The translations under genes were made by a program, and so were the position numbers. The notes beneath the pieces were generated by a model. That model saw only the letters and a program-made list of their open reading frames with translations, was not told where the DNA came from and searched no databases. A stretch of 33,435 nt of DNA from Planctomycetaceae bacterium (GTDB taxonomy: Bacteria; Planctomycetota; Planctomycetia; Planctomycetales; Planctomycetaceae): NCBI GenBank assembly GCA_020426325.1, contig JAGQQG010000064.1, positions 1 through 33,435 of the forward strand. Direction: 5' to 3'. Shown in pieces: positions 23,872 through 32,386 of the stretch (positions are counted from its first letter, which is position 1; the number at the start of each line of letters is the position of its first letter).

Positions 23872-24729
23872 CTAACCGATCTCCGAGGCGATCTCCGCGA
23901 TGGCAGCCGTGTCGAGCACGAGGTGATTGGACTCGAACAGACCCTTGATTGCCGCTTTGTGGACCTTCATTTTGGTGCCGCCGACGCCGATGGCTCCATA
24001 GCAGGTGATCCCTCCAATCTCTTTCGCCTTGTCGGTAACACCGATGCCTTCCAGACCCACCGGCGGGACGGCGTTGAGATCAATCGCGACCTTCAGCCCC
24101 CAGAGACCCTGCCACTGGCTTTCTGACAGAAATTGCACACCGGATGCTCCGGCTGCAATGAGCAGCTCGACTTCGGTGATTGCTGATGCGAGTGCCTCCC
24201 CCGTGGATCCGACTGGTTCGACAATCGCTTCCTCAACAACAGTGCGAATGGCATCACAAGTTTCGGCAGCACGATCAACCGACCGAGACCCGATCCGCAC
24301 ATGGGCTCCCTTCATGGCGAGGATTTGAGCGGCCCGATGCCCGACCGGTCCGGTCCCCCCCAGCACGAGGGCGGTGACGCCCTTCAGGCTCATGTGACGA
24401 GCAGCTGCCTGCACGGCTGCGGCTGCCGTCGTGTTGGAACCGTTCGAGTCCATCATCACAGAGACGCGCATCGGGCCGAAGAACGTCTTCGTCACTTTCT
24501 CAAGGACTGCTTCACCGGATGCAACATCGCTTCCTCCAACGAAGATGGCGGTGTGTTTCAACTCGTCGGGACCGCGAGTGAAGATGGCACCATGCACCAG
24601 CGATGTGACATTCTCCGGGGTCACGCCTCCGTATGCGAACACCTCGTCTGCCCCTGCATCCACTGCGACGACACGATCGAACGTACTTGGGAGAGGATCG
24701 GTGTCGAATTGAATCAGGATATTCTTCAT
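23872..24729 (-). CDS. mtdB: Methylene-tetrahydromethanopterin dehydrogenase (MtdB/MtdC type)
   Basis: A 285-residue cytoplasmic enzyme that oxidises methylene-H4MPT to methenyl-H4MPT with NAD(P)+, the step after Fae in formaldehyde oxidation. The N-terminus MKNILIQFDTDPLPSTFD and the later MDSNGSNTTAAAAVQAA segment are typical. The Rossmann loop VLGGTGPVGHRAAQ binds the cofactor. I start at 24729; two upstream starts in frame lie in or next to a hairpin and add nothing conserved. The gene is 85 bases downstream of fae on the same strand. Planctomycetes are known to carry both MtdB- and MtdC-type enzymes, and these cannot be separated by eye. Confidence 0.88.
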   Translation of the reverse strand: MKNILIQFDTDPLPSTFDRVVAVDAGADEVFAYGGVTPENVTSLVHGAIFTRGPDELKHTAIFVGGSDVASGEAVLEKVTKTFFGPMRVSVMMDSNGSNTTAAAAVQAAARHMSLKGVTALVLGGTGPVGHRAAQILAMKGAHVRIGSRSVDRAAETCDAIRTVVEEAIVEPVGSTGEALASAITEVELLIAAGASGVQFLSESQWQGLWGLKVAIDLNAVPPVGLEGIGVTDKAKEIGGITCYGAIGVGGTKMKVHKAAIKGLFESNHLVLDTAAIAEIASEIG

Positions 24730-24751
24730 CGGAAGTCTGTCCATGTGAGAA

Positions 24752-24784
24752 AGCACCCCAGCTGCCTGAAGCAGCCGGGGTGCT
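24752..24784 (-). terminator. Strong hairpin between fae and mtdB, probable attenuating terminator
   Basis: Read on the minus strand, AGCACCCC/GGGGTGCT (8 bp) continues through one mismatch into GGCTGC-type pairs (GCTGC/GCAGC, 5 bp) around a 5-base loop, followed by TTTCTC. It lies about 30 bases after the fae stop and just before the mtdB start. The short T-run suggests partial termination. Confidence 0.65.
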
Positions 24785-24814
24785 GGAAATCTTGCAATGA
24801 CGCGCGTCGATCGT

Positions 24815-25312
24815 TTACACGCCAGAGAACGGATGCTTGGCCGAGTCCTTCTTGGAGACGACTTCGTCAGCAGAAGGATCGTCCTTCAAGGCTCGCTGAA
24901 TCGAGAGCTTGGTGGCTTCGTAGTTGTACTCGAAGATCTTCTTATCGTCTTCGGCTTCCCAGTGGATGAAGACACCACACACGATCACCCAGTTATCGCA
25001 CTGATCCTTCGGAATCGTGCCATCCGCAACGCAGTCGGCAACCGCCTTCGCGACCGCGTACTGAGCGGGACCGAACATCTGGACGGCCTGTTTGGCGCCC
25101 TTGATCGTGACCTTGGTGACCATCACCGTTGAAGGCTTCACAGCGAGATTTGGTTCGAGCACGGCCAACAGGTTGCTGTGACCCTGAGTTTGCTGAGCGA
25201 GGGCATTTGCGAACGCCACGCCGGTCGGACCGTCCTTATCACCAATCAGAAGGTCGATGTGTGCGACTTCATTTCCATCGCCGACCAGTGCTTCGCCAAT
25301 ATGCATCGCCAT
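24815..25312 (-). CDS. fae: Formaldehyde-activating enzyme
   Basis: A 165-residue cytoplasmic enzyme that condenses formaldehyde with tetrahydromethanopterin to methylene-H4MPT. The family is highly conserved and the match is obvious: GEALVGDGNEVAHIDLLIG (conserved active-site His18), NLLAVLEPNLAVKPSTVMV, VQMFGPAQYAVAKAVAD, GVFIHWEAEDDKKI and the tail YNYEATKLSIQRAL...HPFSGV. The protein is a few residues shorter at its N-terminus than the methylotroph enzyme. GGGAG seven bases before the ATG supports the start. mtdB follows on the same strand. Confidence 0.96.
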   Translation of the reverse strand: MAMHIGEALVGDGNEVAHIDLLIGDKDGPTGVAFANALAQQTQGHSNLLAVLEPNLAVKPSTVMVTKVTIKGAKQAVQMFGPAQYAVAKAVADCVADGTIPKDQCDNWVIVCGVFIHWEAEDDKKIFEYNYEATKLSIQRALKDDPSADEVVSKKDSAKHPFSGV

Positions 25313-25459
25313 GAGTATGCTCCCTTGTTATTTGTCCTGAACGTTTTCATGATAGAGGCTGGTCGTCAGCCAAGTGGGCCCCAGCTTCGATGACGTCTTC
25401 CGAAGTCGTGTCTTATCAACTCTCTGCCGTGAATTCCACCCTCCGCCCCCGCTGACGAC

Positions 25460-26677
25460 ATGCCTCGCCGAACCACCGCATCGAAACCGCCAGCAAATGC
25501 AGGCAGCGGGGAGGGTGCGCCTGCGGCCGACGTGATCATCGTCGGCGCCTCAGTCCGCTCAGCGGCCTTCTCGACGATTCGAGCGGGACTTCGTCCGCTG
25601 TGTATCGACCAGTTTGGTGATGCCGACCTGCAAGCAGTCGCTCCGGTCGTCAGAGTCGAAGATTATCCCAACGGAATCATCGCAGCCCTTGAAAAATTGC
25701 CCCCACTCCCGGTCATTTACACCGGAGCGATGGAGAATCACCCTTCGGTTCTGCGCGACATCGCCGCCCGTCAGCCCCTGCTGGGGAATGATGCCGACAC
25801 GGTCGAGCGCGTCCGCGACCCGGTTCAGTTACATCGAATCCTGAGCAAATCGCACGTCCTTTGCCTTGATGTGCGTGACGAGCCTCACCCGCCTCCTACG
25901 GACGGACATTGGCTCCTCAAACCAAAGCACGGTTCAGGTGGACGGGGGATTACGGTCTGGAACGAAGAGGCGTCCAACTCGCCGACGCTGCAGGAACCAC
26001 ACTACTTTCAACGAAGAGCTGAAGGCACACCCGTCTCCGCCCTGTTTGTCGGGACGGATGACCCCGGGAGTTTGCGGTATGTCGGCCTGACACAACAGAT
26101 GATCGGCTGCCCTGAGTTGAATGCGGGTCCCTTCACATGGTGCGGTTCAGTTGGACCGATCATTCTTGACCCCGGAGGCGAGATTCTCATTCGACGGACG
26201 GGAGCGGTCCTCGCGCATCGATTCGGACTGCGCGGCCTGTTCGGATGCGACTTTGTGCTTCAGACACCGACACAACCGTTGCTGACGGAAGTCAATCCGC
26301 GATACACGGCTTCTGTCGAAATACTGGAAGTACTCGCCGAGGCCAATCTCATGCTGGATCACTGCGAGGCGACCGGGATGACGCTCCCCGAGCATCGTGA
26401 CCCACGAGTGCTGGTTGCTCCACGCGGAGCGGTGCTCGGGAAAATGGTCCTGTTCGCCGACCGGGATGTCGTCGCACCGGATACCTCCAGCTGGCTGCAA
26501 ATGGGGCCTTACGGTCCGATCCCCGCGTATGCTGACGTCCCCACACAGGGGACCCTTCTTCCAAAAGGAAGTCCAATTTGTACGGTCCTGGCGGCCTCTG
26601 CAGAGACCGATCAGTGCATCGGCTACATGCGCCGGCGACTCGCCGAAGTGTCGACTGTGCTCACCGATCCATCGTAA
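25460..26677 (+). CDS. ATP-grasp enzyme, probably of the H4MPT-linked C1 gene set
   Basis: A 405-residue cytoplasmic protein. The N-terminus starts with a nucleotide-fold segment (ADVIIVGASVRSAAFS, about residues 23-38). The ATP-grasp core has HWLLKPKHGSGGRGITVW (ATP-binding Lys and Gly-rich loop, about 152-169), FGLRGLFGCDFVL and the metal site TEVNPRYTASVEILE (about 275-289). ATP-grasp enzymes join a carboxylate to an amine. An ATP-grasp protein is known among the archaeal-like genes linked to H4MPT in methylotrophs and planctomycetes (orf17 type), and the position beside fae and mtdB fits that identity. No strong ribosome site precedes the ATG, which opens an Ala/Gly-rich tail, so the true start could lie slightly downstream. 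Confidence 0.8.
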   Translation: MPRRTTASKPPANAGSGEGAPAADVIIVGASVRSAAFSTIRAGLRPLCIDQFGDADLQAVAPVVRVEDYPNGIIAALEKLPPLPVIYTGAMENHPSVLRDIAARQPLLGNDADTVERVRDPVQLHRILSKSHVLCLDVRDEPHPPPTDGHWLLKPKHGSGGRGITVWNEEASNSPTLQEPHYFQRRAEGTPVSALFVGTDDPGSLRYVGLTQQMIGCPELNAGPFTWCGSVGPIILDPGGEILIRRTGAVLAHRFGLRGLFGCDFVLQTPTQPLLTEVNPRYTASVEILEVLAEANLMLDHCEATGMTLPEHRDPRVLVAPRGAVLGKMVLFADRDVVAPDTSSWLQMGPYGPIPAYADVPTQGTLLPKGSPICTVLAASAETDQCIGYMRRRLAEVSTVLTDPS

Positions 26678-26804: not shown

Positions 26805-27077
26805 ATGCCTCAAGCCATTGCCAATCCGGACGATCTGCGACAGTTCGCCCAGCAACTCAAACAGTTTAACAACACACTGACCGATCAGGCCTCCATGCTG
26901 GCCTCGCGGCTCGAAGCACTCAGCGCTTCCTGGCGAGACCAGGAGAACAAAAAGTTCACCGAGGAATTCCAGCAGCACATGCGTCTGCTCGGTCAGTTCG
27001 TCGACGCAAACAATGCCCATATCCCGTATCTACTCAGGAAGGCGGAGCGGATTGATGAGTATCTCCAGCAGAGGTGA
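26805..27077 (+). CDS. WXG100-like small protein (W-x-D variant)
   Basis: A 90-residue all-helical protein with the size and layout of ESAT-6/WXG100 proteins: helix, central turn, helix. The turn reads SWRDQENKKF, so Trp43 is followed by Arg-Asp in place of x-Gly. The pattern W-x-D-x5-F is shared with the second small protein at 27812. There is no signal peptide, as expected for type VII substrates, which are exported as helical dimers. It is the first gene of a co-directional set ending in an FtsK/EccC-like ATPase. It could be a secreted substrate or a structural partner of the ATPase. No clear ribosome site precedes the ATG. Confidence 0.7.
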   Translation: MPQAIANPDDLRQFAQQLKQFNNTLTDQASMLASRLEALSASWRDQENKKFTEEFQQHMRLLGQFVDANNAHIPYLLRKAERIDEYLQQR

Positions 27078-27121
27078 GACAGACCAGGGACTGAGAGTGA
27101 TTTGAGGAGTGAACTCGACGA

Positions 27122-27187
27122 GGGGACAAGGAGAGGGGGAGACAATGAGAGTTCTCTGACACAAGATCCCCCTCTCTCCTTGTCCCC
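27122..27187. repeat. Purine/pyrimidine inverted repeat between the first two ESX-like genes
   Basis: The left arm 27122-27140 is purine-rich and the right arm 27167-27187 is its inverted complement with one two-base insertion. The arms are separated by 26 bases. It could form a long hairpin in the transcript between the two genes and may be a mobile intergenic element. Confidence 0.65.
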
Positions 27188-27241
27188 CACTCCCTGTGTC
27201 ACCATTTCCAAACCCAAACATACATTCACCGGCCACCCGCA

Positions 27242-27796
27242 ATGTCAACTGCCCGCGTCACTGACATCGCTGCCGTGCGAGCTTTCAAGGCTGCACTCAT
27301 TGAGTTCGAGGAAGAAGCTTCCTCGACCCTTGAGATGATGCAGTTGCAACTGCATCGTACGATGGACTGGGTTGAGCACGAACAGCCGGCTTACTGGACC
27401 AAGCAGATTCAGATCGGGTTCGAAAAAGTCTCTCAGGCGAGGACGGCCCTCTCAACCTGCCAGATGCGCACCGTCGGCGGACGCAGGCCCGCGTGCATCG
27501 AAGAGAAACAGGCACTCGCCAAGGCTAAGCAGCGACTGCAGCTCTGTCAGGAGATGATGCCTCGTGTGAAGAAATGGGCCGTCAAGCTGGCGGATGAGTC
27601 CGACGAGTTTCGCGGCCGTTCATCAGCCTTCGCCCGTATCGTCGAGATGGACCTGCCCAAGATGATCGCTCTCATCGAGCGGACGGCCGCATCACTCGAA
27701 CGTTACGCCGAGATCGCGCCAGGGCCCGCAGTCGAAGAGCTGCCACCACCCTCAACGTCTGCCCCAACAGCGTCACCGACCGAAGACAATTCGTGA
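27242..27796 (+). CDS. Helical, coiled-coil-prone protein of the ESX-like module
   Basis: A 184-residue protein predicted to be almost wholly helical up to about residue 155 (heptad-like EEEASSTLEMMQLQLHRTMDW..., QALAKAKQRLQLCQEMM), then a Pro/Ser/Thr-rich tail. It has no signal peptide, membrane segment or known catalytic motif. I do not recognise a family. Its place between the two W-x-D small proteins, with 15 bases to the next gene, suggests a structural partner, chaperone or larger WXG/LXG-like substrate. Confidence 0.65.
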   Translation: MSTARVTDIAAVRAFKAALIEFEEEASSTLEMMQLQLHRTMDWVEHEQPAYWTKQIQIGFEKVSQARTALSTCQMRTVGGRRPACIEEKQALAKAKQRLQLCQEMMPRVKKWAVKLADESDEFRGRSSAFARIVEMDLPKMIALIERTAASLERYAEIAPGPAVEELPPPSTSAPTASPTEDNS

Positions 27797-27811
27797 TCAG
27801 CGAGAATAACC

Positions 27812-28051
27812 ATGTCACGACATGCCGGCGGGCTTCAATCTGGAATGGGTCGTCTCAAGGAGGCATGGGACGATCTGTCTGCGAAGTGGATGCAGACCCG
27901 CGAGTACTGGCAGGACGCCAATGCCCGTCGATTCGAGGAAGAGGAACTGCAACGGATCGCGAACGAACTGGAGCGAGTTCTCCCTGTAATCTCCCGGATG
28001 TCGCAGGTGATCGCGAATGCCGAGCGAGACCTCGCCGACAACAAACATTGA
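27812..28051 (+). CDS. Second WXG100-like small protein (W-x-D variant)
   Basis: A 79-residue helical protein. The central turn reads YWQDANARRFEEEE, with Trp33, Asp35 and Phe41 spaced exactly as Trp43, Asp45 and Phe51 in the protein at 26805, so the two look like distant paralogues and could form a heterodimer as EsxA/EsxB do. It has no signal peptide. It starts 15 bases after the helical protein, and its TGA is in the same frame as the following ATPase gene. Confidence 0.7.
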   Translation: MSRHAGGLQSGMGRLKEAWDDLSAKWMQTREYWQDANARRFEEEELQRIANELERVLPVISRMSQVIANAERDLADNKH

Positions 28052-28096
28052 CATTCACGCAGACAGCAACACCAGGACAAAACACGGATATCTCTC

Positions 28097-31000
28097 TTGA
28101 GCGATACAACGCGCCCGTCTGATACCTCACTGACTGTAATCACCGAACTGCTTCTCCGGCTGGAAGCGGACATCGCACAGCGTACGCAGTCCGAGCAGGC
28201 CTTTGTTTCTCAGTTTGGCTCCAGCATCGACCCGGAGCGTGAAGCTCTCGAACAAAAACTGTCGGACGTGGTCAACAGACAGTCTGTCCAGGCAGCCGAA
28301 CTCCAGGAGCAGTTCGCATCGCGACGACGTGAAATCGAGTCGGAGCATCTTACTCAGCGGAACACCGTAAAATCGGAACACGAAGCGGAGCTCTCTCGTG
28401 TGCGTCGGGAGGCACAACAAGAGACTGACCGCGTTAACGCGCAACATGAAGACAGCCGCTGGGTCGCCACTTCGGTGCTTGACGAGACGGCTGACGAAAG
28501 CCCCAAACGGCAATTCGAGCGCGTTCGCCAGTCCCTCGACAAGTCCCTTGAACAACAGCAGTCTCAGATCGCCTCACTGCAAACTCAACTCCACGAAATC
28601 GCTGAATCGCGTGGGTGGTCAGTCGACCCACTGGGGCCGCCTGAAACGGATGCCAACGATCTTGAATCCTTCTCGACCGAATTCTTCGAGGCTACAGAGG
28701 CCGCTCACAACCGATTGACCTCTTTACAAAAACTGCGACTGCCCAAGTTGTTCGTCGGGTTACGGTCGCTGTGGCTGTTCGTCGTGTTGACGGCGGTGAT
28801 CGGCATCCCTGTCTTCCTGTTCGTGCCTCCATCGATCGGCGACATCGCGAAGGAACGCATGGACCCTGCCTGGATGATCGCGACAGTCGTAGCCTCTGCC
28901 GTCGTCAGTGCACTCCTCGTCACCGTCATGTACACCCTCGCATCGATGAGTCAGTCCGATGCGTTCTCTCGACTCCATGAGCAGGTCTCATCAGCACAGT
29001 TCTTCCATGAACGCTGGTCACAACTCGCCATCAAAGAGCGTCAACGGCGGGAACGTGAATACGAAAAACAGCAACTGCAACGCGAGGAGCAACTGCGTCT
29101 GCAACTCGAAAGATTCGAGGCCACCCATCAGCGCACGCTGGCTGAGATCGATGAACGCCGACAGGCAGAGATCAGCAAGTTTTCAACCGAATACACCTCA
29201 CGTACGAAGGCCATCGACGCCGAGCGAGTCACGCTACTGGCTGCAATCGACGAGGAGGAGAAAGAACAGCTCGCAGAGCTCAAGCGATCCTTTGAGGACG
29301 AAAGGAATCGTCGACAGATGGACCTCGATCTCCACATCGGCAATCGCCGTCTGGAGCAGAAGCAGTCCTGGGAGCAGCTGACGTCGACCTGGACCGGAAA
29401 CCTGCAGGCATTTGATGCCTACGTGAACCAATCCAGGCAACGTGATGCTGAGCGGAACCTCACATGGTCGCAACTCGCCGGTCCTGAGTGGACTCCGCCC
29501 ACGGTCATCCCCGAAGGCATCCGCATCGGCGAATACGAGATTGATCTCGCGCAACTCCCTCACGGGATGCCCGAGTTGGACGGTCTGACGAAAGCTCCAG
29601 CGACATTCCGCATCCCGACAATCCTCCCTTTTCCGGAAAAGCCCTCTCTACTGTTGGAGACCAAAGGCAAGAACGGTCGCCGCGAGGCGGTAGAGGCCAT
29701 GCAGGTCGTATTGCTGCGCATGCTGACCCGTCTCCCGCCCGGCAAACTGCGACTGACGATCATCGATCCGGTCGGTTTGGGCGAGAGCTTTGCCGGTCTA
29801 ATGCACCTTGGCGACTTCGATGAGTTATTGATCACCAGCCGCATCTGGACGGAGATGGGACACATCGAGTCGCGTCTGGCTGAGTTGACCGAGCACATGG
29901 AGAACGTGCTCCAGAAGTATCTCCGCAACGAGTTCGCCACCATCGAGGAGTACAACCATTTCGCAGGCGAGGTCGCGGAGCCGTATCACGTGCTCGTCGT
30001 GGCCGACTTCCCGCACAAGTTCAGCGAGCAGGCGGCCAAGCGGCTGGTCAGCATCGCCACCAGCGGTCCGAGATGCGGCGTCTACCTGCTCATGAGTACC
30101 GACACCTCCGCGCAGATGCCGAACGCCTTCGACCTGCCAACCGTTGAAGAAACGGCCAACACCTTCGAATGGCGAACGGCCCCTCGAACCCAAGCTTCGG
30201 TTGCGGGACAAACTCCGGCTGAAGAATCCGCCCCGCAACATCGGGATTTCGACGACTCATCATTCTCACAACTCGGCTTGCCGGACGACTTCTCGAGCTT
30301 CGGCAAGACCACGGAAGATCACCGCGAGCCAGCGTTCTATCTCGCGACCGATCAGCCTTTGCTCGCACGTTGGCCTGTCGTCATCGATACACCGCCTCCG
30401 CCGGATCTGTTCACGAAGATCGTCAAAAACGTCGGCGAAGCCTCTAAGGATGTGCGTCGCGTTGAAGTGTCGTTCTCCCGCATCGCTCCCAAGCCGGAAG
30501 AATTCTGGAGCAAGGACAGTCGCTCGGGGATCGACATCCCACTCGGTCGCGCCGGGGCCACCAAGTTGCAACATCTTCGCTTGGGGAAGGGGACAAGTCA
30601 GCACATGCTCGTCGCTGGCAAGACCGGTTCCGGCAAATCGACCTTCTTCCACACGCTGATCACCAACGTCGCCATGTATTACTCGGCCGAAGAGGTCGAT
30701 TTCTATCTCGTCGATTTCAAGAAGGGGGTCGAGTTCAAAGCGTACGCAGGTGGCAAGCTCCCGCACGCCCGTGTGATCGCCATTGAAAGTGATCGCGAGT
30801 TCGGCGTCAGCGTCCTCCACAGACTCGATGCCGTCATGAATCAGCGCGGCGATCTCTTCCGCAAACACAACGTCCAGGACATCGCCAGCTACCGCAATCT
30901 CGTGGAGAGTCGAGAGCGGAGAGGGGAGAGCGGAGAGCGAACGACCACCCACAACCCTCAACCCTCAACCCTCAACCCTCATCTCCCCCGTATTCTGCTC

Positions 31001-32386
31001 GTCATCGACGAGTTCCAGGAGTTCTTCGTCGAGGACGACCGCTATTCGCAGCAGGCAGCACTGATGCTCGACCGTCTCGTCAGACAGGGACGTGCGTTCG
31101 GTGTGCATGTGATCCTCGGCTCGCAAACCCTCGGCGGGGCGTACTCGCTCGCACGCAGTACGCTTGGTCAAGTAGCCGTGCGTGTCGCCCTGCAGTGCAG
31201 TGAGGCGGATGCCCATCTCATCCTCAGCGAAGACAACACGGCTGCCCGGCTCCTCACTCGTCCCGGCGAAGCCATCTACAACGATGCCAACGGCATGATC
31301 GAAGGCAATCATCCGTTCCAGATCGCCTGGCTCCCCGATGAAGAACGCGAAGGCTATCTCGGCGTCATGCAACACTTCGCCCGCGAACAACACCTCAAAC
31401 TCGAACCCGCTGTCGTCTTCGAAGGCAACATCCCGTCAGATGTGTCCCGCAACGAAGAATTTGTCGAACTGCTCTCCGCCGGGTGGCCGGGGCTGGACCA
31501 ACGGGAAGCCCCGGAACAGCAAACGGCATCAGCCCCCCACATCTGGCTGGGGGAAGCGGTCGAGATCGGCCCGCCCACGAGCATCAACTTCCCACAACAG
31601 GCAGGAACCAACCTGATCCTCATTGGCTCCGATCCCGATGCCGCACTTGGCATCCTCTCCACCGGCCTCATCGCCCTCGCCGCCCAACAAAGCCCACCGG
31701 CTACGTCCGGTGGGTCTGAGACAGAAGCAGCTCCCTTCTACGTTTTCGATGGCAACCCGGTCGGCTCGCCGGAGGCCAACCTGTGGAAGCACGTGGCAGG
31801 CGTCATTCCGTCTGATGTCCACATCATCACGCCGCCGCACGCTCCGCAGGCTCTCGCTGAACTGTCCGCTGAGCGCCTTCGCCGCGATGCAGACCCGAAT
31901 GCGTCCCATCCGCCGCTGTTCGTCATCATCGACGGCGTGAGCAAGTTTCGCGACCTGCGGAAATCGGACGACGACTTCTCACTCAGCGGCTTCGGCTCAT
32001 CCAGCGACGACGCTCCAGCTGATCCCGGCCAGCAGTTCACCGACCTGCTCAGCAAAGGCCCCGACCTGGGGATGCACGTGCTCTTGTGGGCGGACACCTA
32101 CAGCAACGCGGACCGCTGGCTCAGCCGTCAGTCGATGCGGGAATTTGAACTCCGCATTGCCTTCACGATGAATGCGGCCGATTCGAGCAACTTCCTCGAC
32201 AGCCCGCTCGCCTCCCGCCTCGGCGTCCACCGCGGCCTCCTCTACCGCGAAGAGACCGGCACCCTCACCAAGTTCCGCCCCTACGGCCCCCCCACACCCC
32301 AATGGCTCGACCACATTCGCTCACAACTGCAAGCCGAACAGGAACTGGAACCCGCGACAGACCTGGACAGCTTTCGAGTGTCATAG
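28097..32386 (+). CDS. EccC/EssC-like FtsK-SpoIIIE ATPase with coiled coils and two membrane helices
   Basis: A 1429-residue protein, likely the motor of a type VII-like secretion system. Residues 1-210 are charged coiled coil. Two membrane helices lie at about 224-243 and 258-282. A second long coiled coil spans about 290-450. Three ATPase-like domains follow. Domain 1 (about 490-700) has a broken Walker A (ETKGKNGR at 521-528) and a Walker B-like LTIIDP near Asp557. Domain 2 has an intact Walker A (GKTGSGKS, 841-848) and Walker B (LLVIDE, Asp971-Glu972). Domain 3 has degenerate motifs (GSDPDAAL at 1177, VIIDG near Asp1279). Repeats insert about 20 residues before Asp971. The start is a TTG without a good ribosome site; it is the first start codon after the TGA of the upstream gene in the same frame. 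Confidence 0.85.
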   Translation: MSDTTRPSDTSLTVITELLLRLEADIAQRTQSEQAFVSQFGSSIDPEREALEQKLSDVVNRQSVQAAELQEQFASRRREIESEHLTQRNTVKSEHEAELSRVRREAQQETDRVNAQHEDSRWVATSVLDETADESPKRQFERVRQSLDKSLEQQQSQIASLQTQLHEIAESRGWSVDPLGPPETDANDLESFSTEFFEATEAAHNRLTSLQKLRLPKLFVGLRSLWLFVVLTAVIGIPVFLFVPPSIGDIAKERMDPAWMIATVVASAVVSALLVTVMYTLASMSQSDAFSRLHEQVSSAQFFHERWSQLAIKERQRREREYEKQQLQREEQLRLQLERFEATHQRTLAEIDERRQAEISKFSTEYTSRTKAIDAERVTLLAAIDEEEKEQLAELKRSFEDERNRRQMDLDLHIGNRRLEQKQSWEQLTSTWTGNLQAFDAYVNQSRQRDAERNLTWSQLAGPEWTPPTVIPEGIRIGEYEIDLAQLPHGMPELDGLTKAPATFRIPTILPFPEKPSLLLETKGKNGRREAVEAMQVVLLRMLTRLPPGKLRLTIIDPVGLGESFAGLMHLGDFDELLITSRIWTEMGHIESRLAELTEHMENVLQKYLRNEFATIEEYNHFAGEVAEPYHVLVVADFPHKFSEQAAKRLVSIATSGPRCGVYLLMSTDTSAQMPNAFDLPTVEETANTFEWRTAPRTQASVAGQTPAEESAPQHRDFDDSSFSQLGLPDDFSSFGKTTEDHREPAFYLATDQPLLARWPVVIDTPPPPDLFTKIVKNVGEASKDVRRVEVSFSRIAPKPEEFWSKDSRSGIDIPLGRAGATKLQHLRLGKGTSQHMLVAGKTGSGKSTFFHTLITNVAMYYSAEEVDFYLVDFKKGVEFKAYAGGKLPHARVIAIESDREFGVSVLHRLDAVMNQRGDLFRKHNVQDIASYRNLVESRERRGESGERTTTHNPQPSTLNPHLPRILLVIDEFQEFFVEDDRYSQQAALMLDRLVRQGRAFGVHVILGSQTLGGAYSLARSTLGQVAVRVALQCSEADAHLILSEDNTAARLLTRPGEAIYNDANGMIEGNHPFQIAWLPDEEREGYLGVMQHFAREQHLKLEPAVVFEGNIPSDVSRNEEFVELLSAGWPGLDQREAPEQQTASAPHIWLGEAVEIGPPTSINFPQQAGTNLILIGSDPDAALGILSTGLIALAAQQSPPATSGGSETEAAPFYVFDGNPVGSPEANLWKHVAGVIPSDVHIITPPHAPQALAELSAERLRRDADPNASHPPLFVIIDGVSKFRDLRKSDDDFSLSGFGSSSDDAPADPGQQFTDLLSKGPDLGMHVLLWADTYSNADRWLSRQSMREFELRIAFTMNAADSSNFLDSPLASRLGVHRGLLYREETGTLTKFRPYGPPTPQWLDHIRSQLQAEQELEPATDLDSFRVS
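30912..30979 (+). repeat. In-frame tandem repeats inside the ATPase gene
   Basis: GAGAGCGGAGAG occurs twice (30912-30923 and 30926-30937, 14-base period). CAACCCT then occurs four times without interruption (30952-30979). They encode a low-complexity stretch (ESRERRGESGERTTTHNPQP...) between the conserved NLV segment and the Walker B strand. Confidence 0.9.

Follow-up and report, generated by a model that had tools for sequence, protein, structure and literature searches.

Type VII secretion is generally associated with the Bacillota and Actinomycetota and with machines built from several subunits in the membrane, and in the systems studied both WXG100 proteins and EccC/EssC-type ATPases are parts of the secretion apparatus. 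Several published descriptions come close to a smaller gene set. Footnote 6 to Table 1 of Zhang 2012 (PMC3482391) pairs a solo WXG protein with a YueA-like ATPase and names planctomycetes, and in H. pylori the WXG and FtsK genes have been considered a type VII set of minimal size (PMC4978471). The 2024 CoCoNuT paper (PMC11090510) presents an EssC-like ATPase with an N-terminal coiled coil, in which the central domain alone is predicted to be active, together with two WXG100 proteins, one of them without the motif, and a nuclease joined to a coiled-coil protein. For the T7SSb, Klein 2022 (PMC9600955) reports that LXG effectors require two small WXG100-like partners (Lap1 and Lap2), and PMC10653861 describes an EsaD complex with three small partners. 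The T7SSa, T7SSb and T7SSc-j treated in PMC11217815 are reported from Bacillota and Actinomycetota and have additional components. Here we analyze a 33,435-nucleotide stretch of the genome of a Planctomycetaceae bacterium (contig JAGQQG010000064.1, assembly GCA_020426325.1; henceforth the window), which carries a four-gene module encoding a WXG100 protein (W1), a 184-residue protein (P184), a second small protein (W2) and a large ATPase. The module probably represents a type VII-like system in reduced form, in which a W1-P184-W2 complex would be exported by the ATPase, a reading based on the homology of W1, W2 and the ATPase, the predicted structures of P184 and of the ATPase core, the co-occurrence of the four genes and their conserved order.

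The module and its ATPase

The four genes are encoded on the forward strand of a 6.8-Mb genome, 95.6% complete, in the order W1 (26805..27077, 90 aa), P184 (27242..27796, 184 aa), W2 (27812..28051, 79 aa) and ATPase (28097..32386, 1429 aa, with a TTG start). An earlier reading of the window from its letters alone (the sequence-only reading) had proposed four co-directional genes at 26805-32386 separated by short gaps. The open reading frame (ORF) coordinates bear out the genes, and the spacing needs one correction, as 164 bp separate W1 from P184, versus 63 bp, with a corresponding start, in the near relative L127. This gap is occupied by a long-stem hairpin repeat (27122-27188; RNA fold -47.1 kcal/mol, z -2.7), for which 2 of 200 shuffles folded equally well and which has one partial match elsewhere in the genome. 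Comparison with L127 yielded 30 synonymous and 4 replacement codon differences in W1, and 470 and 265 in the ATPase; the genes are thus under selection as proteins.

The ATPase begins with a charged, coiled-coil-like region (residues 1-218, 28097..28750; residues 1-120 contain 38% E/K/R/Q and 2.5% P/G), followed by two predicted membrane helices at residues 225-243 (28769..28825, hydropathy 2.73) and 260-278 (28874..28930, hydropathy 2.38) and by a second charged, coiled-coil-like stretch (residues 290-455, 28964..29461; 45% E/K/R/Q and 1.2% P/G). The coiled-coil assignment is one of composition, a heptad-period test on these stretches not being decisive. The sequence-only reading had considered long N-terminal coiled coils atypical of such ATPases; the charged stretches are indeed there, and N-terminal coiled coils are already described for the CoCoNuT-linked form (PMC11090510). 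Hydropathy identified two membrane segments in 39 of 45 ATPase ORFs (a count omitting five truncated ORFs), one segment in five and none in the frameshifted L081.

Both the two hydrophobic segments and the three FtsK-type domains anticipated for this protein were recovered, with a Walker A motif in one domain only. This motif (GKTGSGKS, residues 841-848, 30617..30640) and the Walker B stretch (ILLVIDEFQE, residues 966-975, 30992..31021) map to the middle domain, and G841, T843-S848, D971, E972 and F973 are invariant in all 42 rows of an alignment that omits seven ORFs of at most 1250 aa and L080. Exactly one Walker A motif, always in the middle domain, was found in each of the 50 ATPase ORFs examined. 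Directly before Walker B, and in frame with the gene, lies a dispersed-repeat-like stretch (30905-30995) with 21 matches in the genome including itself, the others extending over 29-82 bases; the insert adds about 20 residues that are absent from L129, whereas L127 and L128 align through it.

One alternative is that this ATPase is a DNA pump of the FtsK/HerA type, with the small proteins as its partners. The middle domain (residues 812-1011) gave the best match to Pfam FtsK_SpoIIIE (6.7e-36), and Foldseek also retrieved FtsK (1e-15). EccC/EssC proteins nonetheless scored far better in both sequence and predicted fold. Against NCBIfam, where all matches fell under the curated cut-offs, the ATPase matched EccCb (7.2e-29), EccCa (1.3e-25) and EssC (5.2e-24) ahead of FtsK (2.8e-8), and a 35-row profile searched against the PDB returned EccC (8e-43), then EccC5 and YukB (1.6e-30), with FtsK at 3.4e-12. 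The AlphaFold2 model of residues 455-1429 (mean pLDDT 85.0) was matched by Foldseek to Thermomonospora curvata EccC (4nh0, 2.7e-31 over 1032 columns, gaps included) and to EssC (1.0e-20); among viral models it retrieved FtsK-type and packaging ATPases, the best at 1.1e-15. The partner genes are WXG100-like, and an 801-aa frame elsewhere in the genome (contig C110) matches FtsK_SpoIIIE better. A DNA pump is hence a very improbable identity for this protein, which by sequence profiles and predicted fold is nearer to EccC/EssC than to FtsK, in line with what the sequence-only reading had expected.

WXG100-type proteins and P184

The small proteins share the proposed W-x-D-x5-F turn, with W1 presenting WRDQENKKF at residue 43 and W2 presenting WQDANARRF at residue 33, and the pattern arose in only 0.4% of shuffled W1 and 0.2% of shuffled W2 sequences (20,000 trials). 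W-x-D replaces the canonical W-x-G throughout, being present in 33 of 33 rows of both families, with no instance of W-x-G. W1 scored above the Pfam WXG100 cut-off (40.1 versus 27.3 bits) and under that of NCBIfam TIGR03930 (30.8 versus 44.85), and, of the 38 candidates in the genome, all of which were scored, it is the only one that Pfam assigns to WXG100. All but two of the 33 aligned W1 rows are 90 aa long, the two exceptions having 89 and 91 aa, and the invariant columns include W43, D45, E47, F51, Y86 and L87. Searches against solved structures placed H. pylori HP0062 nearest to W1 (2.4e-12), then EsxB and EsxA, in matches that span these hairpins over almost their full length.

For W2 the Pfam scan returned nothing up to an E-value of 0.01, and the NCBIfam WXG100 model matched it at only 0.038. 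Alignment of the W1 and W2 family profiles with hhalign, on the other hand, covered 60 columns (E 2.5e-6, probability 89%), and residues W33 and D35 of W2 are invariant in 33 rows. By profile comparison, then, W1 is a WXG100 protein and W2 a divergent relative of it, consistent with the WXG100 assignment first proposed for the pair. A cysteine within the last 12 residues is present in 29 of 33 W2 homologues and absent from the W2 of the window.

The AlphaFold2 model of P184 (mean pLDDT 90.8) comprises helices of 67 and 73 residues (9-75 and 86-158) joined by a short turn and followed by a low-confidence tail, an arrangement that we read as a predicted hairpin. Comparison of its profile with that of W1 gave a weak match (E 1.3e-4, probability 53%), the comparison with W2 gave none, and LXG, compared through Pfam only, did not match. 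Both of the extended P184 homologues that were scanned (L047:9847-10944 and L049:9620-10756) carry an Imm33-like C-terminal domain above the Pfam cut-off, an immunity-type domain joined to the putative transport part; the P184 homologues of L185 and L191 have tails of similar length. In addition, 6 of the 32 aligned P184 rows share a pair of cysteines at the turn (residues 73 and 85), as do 25 of 69 further loci; the pair recurs in the Caballeronia, Rhodococcus and Deinococcus plasmid proteins described below, though not in that of Helicobacter. The pattern was picked post hoc and occurs in 29%, 5% and 6% of shuffles, so that it amounts to no more than a hint.

Distribution and gene order in planctomycetes

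The module was searched for in 292 planctomycete genomes of at least 85% completeness, with E-value thresholds of 1e-30 for the ATPase and 1e-4 for W1 and P184. The ATPase was identified in 50 genomes, about one in six, and W1 and P184 in 49 each, every one of them within the ATPase-bearing 50; W2, sought in those 50 only, was found in 49. All four genes are present in 48 of the 50, the exceptions lacking W1 (G288) or both P184 and W2 (G046). Two ATPase candidates, up to 18 W1 and up to 11 P184 candidates were scored per genome, which could let extra or very divergent copies escape, P184 and W2 being scored nearly fully within the 50. A figure of 3.4e-55 for the co-occurrence of W1 and the ATPase treats the genomes as independent and should not be taken as a fair probability. 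One genome (G066, loci L066 and L070) encodes two ATPase copies, the sole such case among the 50 genomes scored.

Conservation of the gene order, which the sequence-only reading had put forward as a check, was observed in 32 of the 50 genomes as a contiguous W1-P184-W2-ATPase arrangement (the window itself and 31 of the 49 regions that were fetched). Five further genomes are consistent with this order interrupted by a contig break: in G109, G260, G161 and G190 the contig ends within the ATPase gene, the N-terminal part of which is present after W2 (profile E-values of 7e-11 or better), and in G066 the contig stops just past W2. Another 11 genomes (G077, G092, G022, G121, G167, G276, G134, G234, G206, G186 and G267) have the complete set dispersed among two to four places, and the incomplete G288 and G046 make up the rest of the 50. 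At least 513 loci in GTDB encode a relative, and among the 80 named loci that were kept, contig ends included, 56 present the full order, 9 the trio, 4 W1-P184 and 11 W1 alone. These analyses outlined a cultured carrier with intact order, Aquisphaera insulae JC669 (L157), and a Thalassoglobus neptunius KOR42 locus in which W1 alone was found.

Transmission on mobile elements, the reading given to such sets in the 2012 footnote, is not favored in the planctomycetes. Among the candidates scored, and apart from the two ATPases of G066, each part occupies one place per genome, the set is complete even when scattered, and nine of ten rows of family f1 form a single clade in the ATPase tree (support 96/92), with L060 outside it. 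Inheritance along with the host family appears to account for most of the distribution of the four-gene set.

The neighboring proteins of the window contain PSCyt1, PSCyt2, PSD1 and DUF1501 domains (Pfam), which point to a planctomycete origin. The adjacent stretch 23872-26677 encodes a formaldehyde-activating enzyme, a methylene-tetrahydromethanopterin dehydrogenase and an ATP-grasp protein, and an ATP-grasp gene also lies upstream of W1 in loci L037 and L038.

Proposed function and comparison with known systems

Two elements of type VII systems in the broad sense, an EccC/EssC-type ATPase with two hydrophobic segments and a WXG100 protein encoded alongside it, are present in the module by sequence. 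In the reduced type VII-like system that we propose, the ATPase would be anchored in the cytoplasmic membrane by its two helices, with a ring on the cytoplasmic side in which the middle FtsK-type domain would hydrolyze ATP, the first and third having presumably turned structural or substrate-binding. W1 and W2, as putative hairpins, would assemble with the long P184 before secretion, comparable to Lap1 and Lap2 on the LXG domain of the T7SSb, and the ATPase would recognize this W1-P184-W2 complex and move it, in part or entirely, through the cytoplasmic membrane. P184 would then be the counterpart of the transport part of an effector, toxin-bearing in distant relatives, ending in a putatively disordered tail in the window and in an Imm33-like domain in some lineages. 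The ring, the formation and recognition of the complex, its export and the transport role of P184 are the steps that we infer.

Relatives of the module outside the phylum were identified on plasmids with tblastn (257 records, of which five loci were taken as relatives and ten for comparison), and profile scores were calibrated against 4059 reversed decoys (best scores of 12.2, 9.8 and 13.0 bits for W1, P184 and W2, respectively). The Caballeronia locus presents the order VWA, WXG100, 436-aa protein, 113-aa protein, 76-aa protein, ATPase and CARF, and that of Helicobacter sp. NHP19-012 encodes an 89-aa WXG100-like protein (Pfam 24.0 bits, under the cut-off), a 340-aa WHH nuclease, a SUKH immunity protein, a 77-aa protein and the ATPase; the genes are arranged differently in the remaining three loci, two from Rhodococcus and one from Deinococcus. 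The W1 profile detected a small protein in four of the five loci (87.6, 57.4, 41.8 and 32.6 bits), its best score in the R. pseudokoreensis locus being only 7.7 bits. The P184 profile clearly reached the 314-aa protein of the Rhodococcus AH-ZY2 locus (23.8 bits) and scored slightly above decoys on the WXG100-like proteins of Caballeronia (14.9 bits) and Rhodococcus (14.0 bits), and the W2 profile reached a 144-aa Deinococcus protein (20.7 bits). Paired membrane segments were found in none of the five ATPases. A toxin slot is thus common by position to Caballeronia and Helicobacter, and the homology of P184 to the larger protein is supported once only, by profile score.

Several observations weigh against the proposed export. 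The TM-score to EccC is just 0.34-0.38, so that the ATPase domains would be arranged differently from those of EccC, or flexibly, and the ATPase tree puts the group apart from both EccC/EssC and FtsK with an undecided sister; this tree, with 21 planctomycete rows out of the 50 ORFs, long branches and an undecided root, was not used for kinship. A Foldseek search of the PDB with P184 returned nothing below an E-value of 1e-3, the listed matches being generic long helices. Among the larger proteins of the plasmid loci, those of Caballeronia (8.5 bits) and Deinococcus (6.7 bits) did not exceed decoys with the P184 profile and the Helicobacter nuclease was not listed, while the Caballeronia 76-aa (1.6 bits) and Helicobacter 77-aa (3.8 bits) proteins fell under decoys with the W2 profile. 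The sequence-only reading had described the system as minimal, with EccB, EccD, EccE and mycosin genes missing from the window. Searches of the window's genome for YukD and YukC/EssB, with a positive Bacillus subtilis control, returned no match, so that for these two parts an absence holds genome-wide; EccB was likewise unmatched in a search whose positive control was equally silent. The YxxxD/E export arm is absent from all 33 W1 and all 33 W2 rows, the looser [YF]xxx[DE] occurring within the last 45 residues in one of 33 rows of each; P184 presents YxxxD/E anywhere in 10 of 32 rows and the looser pattern within the last 45 residues in 4 of 32. The ATPase shows no FHA domain in a Pfam scan up to an E-value of 0.1. 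Furthermore, no effector family was recognized, each genome having one place for W1, P184 and W2.

The lack of YukD and YukC/EssB matches, of an export arm and of a recognized effector would fit a machine that exports nothing and instead performs membrane-bound remodelling or signalling on three helical proteins, for instance in envelope stress or cell division. The near-constant presence of the same four parts, in one place each, also resembles a housekeeping complex. The established role of WXG100 proteins and EccC/EssC-type ATPases in secretion argues against this possibility, as does the Helicobacter relative, in which P184 is replaced by a toxin followed by an immunity gene, which makes sense for an exported protein. 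We regard a non-exporting machine as rather unlikely, though the most serious of the alternatives.

The ATPase also matches PADLOC defense ATPases nearly as well as EssC (mad8 1.4e-23, SspH 1.5e-22), and the relatives without membrane segments lie in defense operons, where secretion is likewise a prediction; both facts count against export as well. The module might instead be an anti-phage or conflict system, a stand-alone version of the WXG100/EssC-like cassette of CoCoNuT and TerY-P operons. The plasmid relatives adjoin VWA, CARF, kinase and phosphatase genes, or TerD genes, or Hsp70, and the ATPase of the CoCoNuT paper, with its middle domain alone predicted active and its two WXG100 proteins, follows the same plan. 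No such neighbor, nor a McrBC-like one, was detected, however, in a Pfam scan of 19 ORFs of the window, a subset that counts the module's own four genes and an ORF in a wrong frame. The family-f1 clade and the completeness of the set when scattered are also unlike a mobile defense island, and a conflict role accordingly appears improbable.

The reduced exporter favored here admits a bolder version, speculative and in our view unlikely, in which a toxin-free type VII machine serves as a housekeeping organ that exports a fixed W1-P184-W2 complex to build or maintain a structure of the planctomycete envelope, effector arming (the Imm33-like tail, the nuclease of the plasmid relative) being a side branch. 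If true, we know of no functioning type VII exporter that is smaller. The four-part set would make it possible to address in non-pathogens the smallest number of parts with which a type VII-like exporter can work and whether two-membrane cells employ one at all, and the position of P184 ties the module to a toxin-carrying plasmid relative.

Compared with known systems, the module shares with the T7SSa, T7SSb and T7SSc-j covered in PMC11217815 an EccC/EssC-type ATPase and a WXG100 protein, and differs from them in its planctomycete host and in comprising four genes. The likeness to the LXG-Lap1-Lap2 set of the T7SSb (PMC9600955), and to the EsaD complex of PMC10653861, is an anatomical analogy, with one long and two short helical proteins encoded beside an EccC/EssC-type ATPase; unlike the T7SSb, the module combines W1 and W2 without the export arm, an ATPase without FHA match and a genome without YukC or YukD matches. 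HP0062 of H. pylori, the best solved match to W1, presents WRD in its bend according to a passage of PMC3397514, and the Helicobacter sp. plasmid relative differs from the window module in that toxin and immunity genes occupy its P184 position. The CoCoNuT form (PMC11090510) resembles the module in its three-domain ATPase, coiled-coil-like N-terminus and two WXG100-type proteins, but its ATPase has no membrane helices and is encoded among VWA, CARF and McrBC-like genes, whereas two helices are predicted in the window. The solo-WXG type of Zhang 2012 likewise has three HerA/FtsK domains with the middle one alone active; the passages of PMC3482391 on this type say nothing of P184, W2 or membrane helices, and present such sets as mobile versions of the T7SS, in contrast with the apparent inheritance described above. 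The suggestion that the module may be an undescribed subtype thus holds in part. Its general kind has been known since 2012, and P184, the predicted membrane anchoring and the co-occurrence of the four parts, for which no description was found in the open-access literature searched, are new as far as that search extends.

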